DNA of 47,763 nucleotides, taken from NCBI GenBank assembly GCA_021785435.1, contig JAJYFE010000013.1, forward strand, positions 1 through 47,763. Direction: 5' to 3'. Each line of letters opens with the position of its first letter. The first letter of the stretch is position 1. Position numbers and translations under genes: made by a program. This DNA comes from Planctomycetota bacterium (GTDB lineage Bacteria; Planctomycetota; Phycisphaerae; WQYP01). Shown here one piece after another: positions 45,178 to 47,763 of the stretch. The notes below the pieces were generated by a model that saw only the letters and a program-made list of their open reading frames with translations, did not search any database and was not told where the DNA came from.

Positions 45178-46605
45178 TTACTTTTTACTTTTGCCTTTTA
45201 TAACCGGCCATCCATGCAGGCGCACCTGCAGCAACAGCGGCCGCTTCTGGCGAATCAGCGACACCGGGATATTTCGGGGGCCGCGTCGCAGGGCGTGGAG
45301 GATGCTGCCCCAGCGGCCGACCGGCACGCCGGCGATGGACACAATCAAATCTCCCGGTTTGATGCCGCCAGCCCATGCTGCAGAATGATTGAACACCGCC
45401 TGCACCAGCATCGCCGGTCGTCGGCCCAGGGCGGGAATCTGCCGGCGCAGAGGTGAATCCGGCGGCACCATGACGTAACGCAGCCCCAGCCTCCACTGGG
45501 GAACCTGACCGGAACGGATAAAGGCGGTTAGCCATTCCGTGCGGCGGCAGACTCCTATCGCCGACGGTCCATTCGCCAGCGCCGCCAACTGTCCCCGCAA
45601 ATTAAAAAAGAGAACATATTGCCCACCGGCGAGTCGGAACCACGGCAATGCGCCACGACCAGGACGCAGGGCCGCACGGCCCAGCGGCATCGTCCATTGC
45701 AGCGCGGGTGAAGCCACCTGCAGCGCCACGAGTAGTTCCGCCGGACGCGGCAGGTTCACTGCCAGGGTCGCGCTGGCCGGGTCCGCCGTCACGGGCAGTT
45801 TCAATACGGTCAGACCACGGGAATAATCCTCGCCGAGTACCGTGGCCCGCCTTTTAGCGCCGTCCGCAGTGATAATGGTGACGGCGCGGGGCGAGCCGGG
45901 CAGGCCCAATAATATTGGAGTAAACACGCGCCGGCCCGAATGCACCACCAATCCGAGCACCTGACGATCCACGCCCATCCGCAGCAGGTCCATCCGCTGC
46001 CGCACCAGCCGCAACACGGGCCGAAGTTGCGGATGCTGCCAGGGATGCTCGGACCAGAGATAACGCTGCAGCAGGAACGTTTCCGCATGGGGATTGTTTA
46101 AAAACCAATGCAACCGTTGCCGTTCATACGGAGTCAGGCTCGGGGGGCGCGTCGCCGCGCGTCGGCGCGGAATAATGGTGATGACGGCGGCGTGGCCGGC
46201 CGGCCCGGGTGGCCGGTGACGCCGCGCACGGAAATCGTGCTGGATTACCCAATGTTGCATCCATTGCCGAAAGCCCCCCTGCATATTCGCGGGCAGCCAA
46301 TGCATAGGATTGGGATCCAGTCGTACCCATACCAGACGCCGGCGCAGGCGACGGTAAAAGGCCTCGGACTCGCGGTTTAAACGCCGCAAAAGGCGCGGAG
46401 CGGAGCGCGAATAGCACCGCCGTGGTACAGCCCTCTTCGCGGCGCTGTCGGTCCGGCTGGGCGCAGCGGGCGAAGCCAGCCATCCCCCCGGGCCGGGTTC
46501 CGCGGCTAGCCGCGGCGACGCCGGGGCGCCGGGGGCGGTGCCCGCCATCAGCAAGGCCGCCAGGCCGCCCCACGCTAGAAAACGCCCGGCCTGAAAACGG
46601 TGCAC
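45178..46605 (-). CDS. Secreted HtrA-like pseudoprotease with PDZ domain
   Basis: The 475-residue protein starts (GTG 46605) with a signal sequence (RFLAWGGLAALLMAGTAPGA), followed by an arginine-rich alpha-helical region, a degenerate trypsin-like domain (about 255-390) and a C-terminal PDZ domain (from about 395; MLVQAVFNHSAAWAGGIKPG, DLIVSIAGVPVGRW). ITADGAKRRATVLGEDYSRG and LTVLKL align with the DegP/HtrA segment LADGREFxAKVVGxDPxTDLAVLKI. The catalytic aspartate is glycine, no TNxHV-type histidine motif is found (RRVFTPILLG stands there) and GNSGGP is replaced by FFNLRGQLAALANG. All three triad residues are thus missing and proteolysis is unlikely; a binding or regulatory role is inferred. 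No good ribosome site was found. It lies beside an anti-sigma/sigma pair on the same strand. Confidence 0.7.
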   Translation of the reverse strand: MHRFQAGRFLAWGGLAALLMAGTAPGAPASPRLAAEPGPGGWLASPAAPSRTDSAAKRAVPRRCYSRSAPRLLRRLNRESEAFYRRLRRRLVWVRLDPNPMHWLPANMQGGFRQWMQHWVIQHDFRARRHRPPGPAGHAAVITIIPRRRAATRPPSLTPYERQRLHWFLNNPHAETFLLQRYLWSEHPWQHPQLRPVLRLVRQRMDLLRMGVDRQVLGLVVHSGRRVFTPILLGLPGSPRAVTIITADGAKRRATVLGEDYSRGLTVLKLPVTADPASATLAVNLPRPAELLVALQVASPALQWTMPLGRAALRPGRGALPWFRLAGGQYVLFFNLRGQLAALANGPSAIGVCRRTEWLTAFIRSGQVPQWRLGLRYVMVPPDSPLRRQIPALGRRPAMLVQAVFNHSAAWAGGIKPGDLIVSIAGVPVGRWGSILHALRRGPRNIPVSLIRQKRPLLLQVRLHGWPVIKGKSKK

Positions 46606-46725
46606 GGGAAGGTCGCCGCGGATGCTAAATCCGGGGGCGTTGGCTCCATCTTTTGCGGCGGCACGGCTTCGAAAATAACGGGGAAGGAACCACCGTTTAC
46701 CCGCCGCGGCGGAGATCCCACCGAT

Positions 46726-46763
46726 GACACGGATAAAATCAGTGGAATCTGTGTAATTCGTGG
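46726..46763. repeat. Degenerate AATCAGTGGAATCTGTG-type intergenic string
   Basis: Second occurrence of the ATCnGTG-type string described at 18050-18104. The surrounding intergenic bases 46606-46921 contain nothing else I can name. Confidence 0.4.
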
Positions 46764-46921
46764 TTGCTGTTTTCACCCTCTCTGGGTGCGGCAAGGCCCC
46801 ATGTTTAGCTATTGCGCCTCCCTGTTCACCGGAGGCTAGATAGAACTTTTCGCGACTTTCTGGCCGCGCCCGGGTCGGAAAGACCGGGCCAGAGCCGCCG
46901 CACTGACACATCCCCATAAGC

Positions 46922-47470
46922 CTAGAAAACTCCCGAAGCCGCCTGCGCCGCCGGGGGATTCATGGAGACCGATCCGCCGGTCGCCTGATCCACCTGGTAC
47001 GTCTGCACAAAACGCTGCGCCTGCCGGTAGGTGGCGAAGGTTTGGCTGAGGGTTTGACCGTCCGGCGATTCAATCTTGACGGTGTAGCCGGTGCGCAGCG
47101 CCTCGGCCCCGGTGGCCGAGCCCATGCGATTGCCAGCCAGAAAACTTCCCACGCTGATCAGCAGGCATGCGGCAATTCCCGCCGCCCATTGGAGCCAGCG
47201 CCGCGACTGCCCCCCGAGCGTCGCCAGCGGAGCATACTCGGCGATATAGCTTCGCTCCAACGCCAAGCGCGCCAACGCGGCCGACTCGGCCGCGCTGGGG
47301 CGGTAGGTGTCCAACGCCGCGCGGCGGTGTTGGCGCATTCGCCGCAACGCCGTCAGCCGCGCCGCCACGGCGCTATCCGCGGCGGCGAGTGCTTCCACCT
47401 GCTGGAGTTCATCGCCGGTCAGCTCACCGTCCAGATACTCTTCCAAAAGCTGATCGCACATCGCACGCAT
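46922..47470 (-). CDS. Anti-sigma-factor-like single-pass membrane protein
   Basis: The 182-residue protein starts MCDQLLEEYLDGELTGDELQ, which resembles the N-terminal anti-sigma helix (a zinc-finger-like arrangement C-x-LLxxYLDGEL but without a full HxxxCxxC motif). One transmembrane helix follows at about 96-118 (WAAGIAACLLISVGSFLAG), then an outer domain of about 60 residues. Such proteins hold an ECF sigma factor at the membrane until a signal releases it. GAGG lies six bases before the ATG. It follows the sigma factor gene with a 40-bp gap on the same strand, the usual order, and the HtrA-like gene comes next. Confidence 0.75.
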   Translation of the reverse strand: MRAMCDQLLEEYLDGELTGDELQQVEALAAADSAVAARLTALRRMRQHRRAALDTYRPSAAESAALARLALERSYIAEYAPLATLGGQSRRWLQWAAGIAACLLISVGSFLAGNRMGSATGAEALRTGYTVKIESPDGQTLSQTFATYRQAQRFVQTYQVDQATGGSVSMNPPAAQAASGVF

Positions 47471-47510: not shown

Positions 47511-47763
47511 TTACGGGAATTGACCCTGATGCCCTTTCACCATGGGCGGGGCCTCCCTCTGTTCGCCTTCCGTATGCTCGCGCCAGGCCTGAGCCAGCCG
47601 GGCGCGGCTGCGAAATAGCCAGGTTTTGACCTGGGCTTCCGTGACCCGGAGCGTCTCGGCGATCTGGCGGTAACTGAAGTTCTGCTGCTCCCTCAACACC
47701 AGCACCTCGCGCCAGGGATCCGGCAGGGCCTCCATTTGGCGGCGCAGGTAGGCCGCTGTTTCC
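47511..47763 (-). CDS. ECF-type RNA polymerase sigma factor, C-terminal part (partial)
   Basis: The minus-strand frame is open to the window edge and reads ETAAYLRRQMEALPDPWREV, then LVLREQQNFSYRQIAETLRV and TEAQVKTWLFRSRARLAQAW. This is sigma region 4 with its helix-turn-helix, which binds the -35 element. Region 2 lies outside the window, so the gene continues beyond 47763. It is directly upstream of the anti-sigma-like gene, forming an ECF sigma/anti-sigma operon. Confidence 0.88.
   Translation of the reverse strand, partial: ETAAYLRRQMEALPDPWREVLVLREQQNFSYRQIAETLRVTEAQVKTWLFRSRARLAQAWREHTEGEQREAPPMVKGHQGQFP

Follow-up and report, generated by a model that had tools for sequence, protein, structure and literature searches.

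A catalytically dead HtrA paralogue encoded with an ECF sigma/anti-sigma pair in Phycisphaerae: a probable holder of the anti-sigma C-terminus

The window analyzed here, 47,763 nucleotides in length, is one entire contig (C7) of a Planctomycetota assembly of 4.4 Mb in 234 contigs. Three genes lie on the minus strand at its end, encoding in reading order an ECF sigma factor, an anti-sigma factor and an HtrA-like pseudoprotease. The sigma gene is partial in the window because the contig ends there; the retained C-terminal part (47511..47762, minus strand) comprises region 4 (Sigma70_r4_2, E 2.6e-13), and a full-length ECF sigma was found in a sister genome (L039). The anti-sigma gene (46922..47470, minus strand) encodes 182 aa with a zf-HC2-like N-terminal domain, one membrane helix (47123..47212, minus strand; within residues 87-116 by hydropathy and model) and a small outer domain, as judged from the predicted model and from Pfam and NCBIfam matches near threshold, that to zf-HC2 falling just below the Pfam cut-off. 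In the model (mean pLDDT 71.7, pTM 0.37), the N-terminal domain is helical, the outer domain has a beta-beta-alpha arrangement and the last 17 residues are disordered (residues 166-182, pLDDT under 50; 46925..46975, minus strand). This tail ends in GVF and is the proposed PDZ ligand. Sigma region 4, the zinc-finger-type N-terminal domain and the single membrane helix fit an ECF sigma with a membrane anti-sigma, the neighbors named in the original prediction, which had been made from the letters of the window.

The pseudoprotease gene (45178..46605, minus strand) extends from a probable GTG start at 46603-46605 to a stop at 45178-45180 and encodes 475 aa, beginning with a hydrophobic N-terminal export signal. 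A dispersed repeat with 24 matching places genome-wide occupies 46690-46790, between the anti-sigma and pseudoprotease genes, and lengthens the open reading frame upstream of the probable start; an alternative start at 46917 is disfavored because the added stretch contains this repeat. No Rfam family or promoter signal relevant to the locus was found. Following the export signal, a helical N-terminal domain specific to this pseudoprotease family (residues 67-208; 45982..46407, minus strand), mostly helices in the AlphaFold2 model and with an invariant W115, precedes a degenerate HtrA beta-barrel (residues 214-352; 45550..45966, minus strand) and a PDZ domain (residues 372-465; 45211..45492, minus strand), which shows the highest average conservation within the protein. 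The carboxylate-binding loop of the PDZ domain (residues 373-375, LGL; 45481..45489, minus strand) follows a family pattern, [FL]-G-[IVL], that is kept almost without exception, with G374 present in 39/39.

Single-sequence searches detected the PDZ domain alone, through a PDZ_6 match (E 1e-5) that at 25.6 bits lies slightly below the Pfam cut-off of 27 and a TIGR02037 match (E 2.9e-6) confined to the linker and PDZ domain; no Trypsin_2 match was detected. The homology of the barrel emerges from the family profile, which picks up HtrA-type proteins across the class and aligns with true HtrAs in hhalign over 246 columns (99.6% probability, E 2e-23). The AlphaFold2 model (mean pLDDT 73.7, pTM 0.66) has DegP and DegS, including DegS bound to a YQF peptide, as its best PDB matches in Foldseek (E about 1e-14, with modest TM-scores of 0.3-0.5), and neither domain nor structure searches matched an RseB model to the protein, the fold being HtrA-like. 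The HtrA-type core that had been proposed on the strength of the motif ADGAKRRATVLGEDYSRGLTVLKL, which is present, and the PDZ domain proposed with it are thereby borne out. The barrel is plainly HtrA-derived, and we read the protein as an exported, catalytically dead HtrA paralogue.

Alignment with intact HtrAs locates the loss of the catalytic machinery. The column of the catalytic His holds Leu in the window protein and His in no operon homologue; that of the catalytic Asp holds Gly, with Asp in just three homologues (L055, L057 and L061); and the NPGNSGGP segment carrying the catalytic Ser is gapped out in every aligned operon homologue. A His-Asp-Ser triad with GNSGG is consequently absent throughout the aligned set, as the original prediction had read from a single protein, and the displaced but intact triad that it had named as a contrary outcome is not visible in the alignment. 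In a tree, the pseudoproteases of each of the two families that carry the operon cluster together, and three groups each fall on one side of a branch; the triad may have been lost once or twice, either history fitting the tree. Beyond the two families, profile searches of the class and phylum samples returned matches no different in level from those of true HtrAs.

The linkage of the three genes, whose absence had been named as the other contrary outcome, recurs in other genomes. Contig searches were seeded with the sigma factor. In the window's own family, 27/28 genomes carry the pseudoprotease gene immediately after that of the anti-sigma. In these 27 loci the sigma gene comes next in 26 (the window's copy being cut by the contig end) and falls outside the contig in the remaining one. 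The 28th genome, in which the operon was not found, is a 76% complete assembly. This three-gene order is shared by 15/26 sampled genomes, from 13 genera, of a second family in the class. We reject a chance neighborhood of the three genes because this synteny is conserved. The pseudoproteases of the window and of a sister species differ mostly at third codon positions (18/6/35 differences at positions 1/2/3). In one genome (G116), a frame break splits the pseudoprotease frame (L112:3346-4430), reflecting either assembly error or decay.

The anti-sigma C-terminus bears on what the PDZ domain might bind. The last residue of linked anti-sigmas is F in 40/42 cases and L in the other two, and position -3 is G or D in 38/42, while the roughly 25 columns before the terminal residue have a median identity of about 21% (0.21); these operon and tail cases come from genomes related by kinship and are not independent. 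In three second-family genomes, the orthologous sigma/anti-sigma pair is kept and the pseudoprotease is missing, and there the anti-sigma ends in SPAR, GRNR or QRPE; all three belong to one family. Across the class, 17 anti-sigmas without a detected PDZ neighbor, including these three and several scored as unlinked on the basis of roughly 1 kb downstream, comprise one ending in F and four ending in any large hydrophobic residue. For terminal F in linked versus PDZ-less anti-sigmas, a Fisher test gives p of about 2e-11, a descriptive value that ignores kinship. No unlinked zf-HC2 protein of the window's family ends in F.

A parallel operon of ECF sigma, anti-sigma and a secreted PDZ-only protein without a protease domain was found in 16 genomes of families f8, f16 and f20 (L220-L235), and its anti-sigmas end in a large hydrophobic residue in 16/16 cases (L 12, I 2, F 1, M 1). 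Two second-family anti-sigmas without a PDZ neighbor (L207 and L208) nevertheless terminate in LPF and LPY, which counts against the proposed binding; the gene after each encodes an exported protein of no recognized kind, so that these may be a further instance of C-terminal recognition. Contact between the PDZ domain and the anti-sigma C-terminus (...AASGVF), as suggested in the original prediction, gains good indirect support from the terminal Phe of linked anti-sigmas and its absence in the three pairs lacking the pseudoprotease. Binding between the two proteins, for which these sequence patterns are the basis, is quite probable.

The genome also encodes candidate machinery for release. It has four HtrA-type proteins with intact motifs, none of them linked to the pseudoprotease operon, and M50 proteins with HExxH, one of them in a frame that contains PDZ domains as well, an arrangement seen in RseP. 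The anti-sigma could therefore still undergo ordinary site-1 and site-2 cleavage. Nearly every sampled genome of the class has HtrA-type matches, whose presence does not follow the Phe tail.

A dead protease matched by an end-tag on the anti-sigma suggests control by holding, not cutting. The pseudoprotease may sense, shield or do something else, and we assign a probability of about 60% to the reading that its PDZ groove holds the anti-sigma's own C-terminus, the pseudoprotease serving as a non-catalytic cap or sensor in the manner of RseB/MucB, an exported non-catalytic protein that binds the anti-sigma and suppresses site-1 cleavage (PMC8545111). Under this model, the dead HtrA paralogue would serve a single partner, the anti-sigma encoded immediately before it, with the PDZ domain gripping the disordered outer tail by its terminal Phe (G/D-x-F) and free carboxylate. 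The bound pseudoprotease would keep the anti-sigma in its sigma-sequestering state and would put the tail and stalk out of reach of genuine site-1 proteases, as an RseB-like cap made from an HtrA scaffold. Some signal would then free the tail; at a guess, this might be unfolded envelope proteins with C-termini that compete with it, or a ligand that binds the helical domain. An intact HtrA together with an RseP-like site-2 protease would then degrade the anti-sigma and release sigma. We prefer a cap because the gene sits where an RseB-type cap would and the protein is non-catalytic; that the overall effect on the anti-sigma is protective is nonetheless a call close to even, tipped slightly against.

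Among the alternatives, the one that survives best, though we consider it unlikely, is that the pseudoprotease acts as an adaptor, binding the anti-sigma tail and presenting it to an intact HtrA, or activating that HtrA, so that cleavage is promoted. HtrAs act as oligomers and four intact HtrA-type proteases are available in the same genome; there is also a precedent in MamO, which activates MamE-dependent proteolysis (PMC4794232). The operon, however, contains no linked intact HtrA, and cap, adaptor and sensor look alike at the level of sequence. Somewhat less likely again is that an intact site-1 protease recognizes the Phe tail, while the pseudoprotease either acts as a decoy or competes for activating peptides, or else leaves the anti-sigma alone and serves the sigma regulon as an envelope chaperone. 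Terminal Phe is indeed recognized by the PDZ domains of DegS and AlgW (PMC8545111), intact HtrAs are at hand, and the residue could be read instead by another PDZ protein, either an intact HtrA or the RseP-like protease. Against this, the three pairs lacking the pseudoprotease also lack the Phe tail, a different linked PDZ protein goes with a different tail residue, mostly Leu, and the near-ubiquitous HtrA-type matches do not track the tail. Finally, a decaying pseudogene hitchhiking in the operon, to which the eroded second lobe of the barrel and the vanished catalytic loop might point, is highly improbable and close to refuted because of conservation, given a frame that is open in nearly all genomes, positions in the PDZ domain and elsewhere that are invariant across two families, and differences from the sister species that fall mainly in the third position of codons.

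Holding of the anti-sigma tail, if correct, would join two known themes, PDZ reading of a C-terminal Phe and ECF sigma control, and it makes a sharp prediction, namely that binding should hinge on a single residue, the anti-sigma's terminal Phe, with genomes that have or lack the pseudoprotease providing a natural series. It would also show, in a group of uncultured planctomycetes, how a protease scaffold can take on a regulatory role. A broader conjecture, which we regard as rather unlikely, is that Phycisphaerae harbor a class of ECF anti-sigmas held by their own C-terminus in a dedicated non-proteolytic PDZ protein, be it an HtrA pseudoprotease with Phe tails or a PDZ-only protein with mostly Leu tails, and that misfolded envelope C-termini compete the tail off to trigger the response. 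The papers that were searchable yielded no description of an operon combining sigma, anti-sigma and a PDZ pseudoprotease.

Comparison with known systems places the window pseudoprotease among several precedents. It resembles DegS and AlgW, the HtrA proteases that carry out site-1 cleavage in the RseA and MucA pathways, in combining a barrel with one C-terminal PDZ domain outside the inner membrane and in being tied to an ECF sigma/anti-sigma pair; its proposed ligand also ends in Phe, as do theirs, the DegS PDZ domain binding YxF and that of AlgW the MucE tail ending in WVF (PMC8545111). Unlike them, it lacks the triad and serine loop and carries an extra helical N-terminal domain, and its proposed ligand is the anti-sigma's own tail instead of a misfolded porin or MucE. 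An HtrA gene accompanies an ECF sigma and its anti-sigma in the actinobacterial sigE-rseA-htrA and pseudomonad algU-mucA-mucB-mucC-mucD operons; the HtrAs encoded there are considered proteolytically active, whereas here the triad is gone throughout two families. The RseB/MucB gene lies near the anti-sigma gene in its operon, and RseB is built of lipoprotein-carrier-like domains; like RseB/MucB, the pseudoprotease is exported, non-catalytic and encoded after the anti-sigma, but it has an HtrA/PDZ scaffold. It shares a degenerate HtrA active site with magnetosome HtrA pseudoproteases such as MamO, an HtrA-family pseudoprotease in non-catalytic use (PMC4794232), which functions in biomineralization and metal binding and, in contrast to the window protein, has no sigma/anti-sigma linkage. 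Anti-sigma control by an HtrA/PDZ protein is thus of a known kind; what is new is that the HtrA is dead throughout and that the anti-sigma itself seems to supply the ligand, which, if true, would turn the DegS circuit inside out by making the PDZ ligand an integral piece of the anti-sigma.
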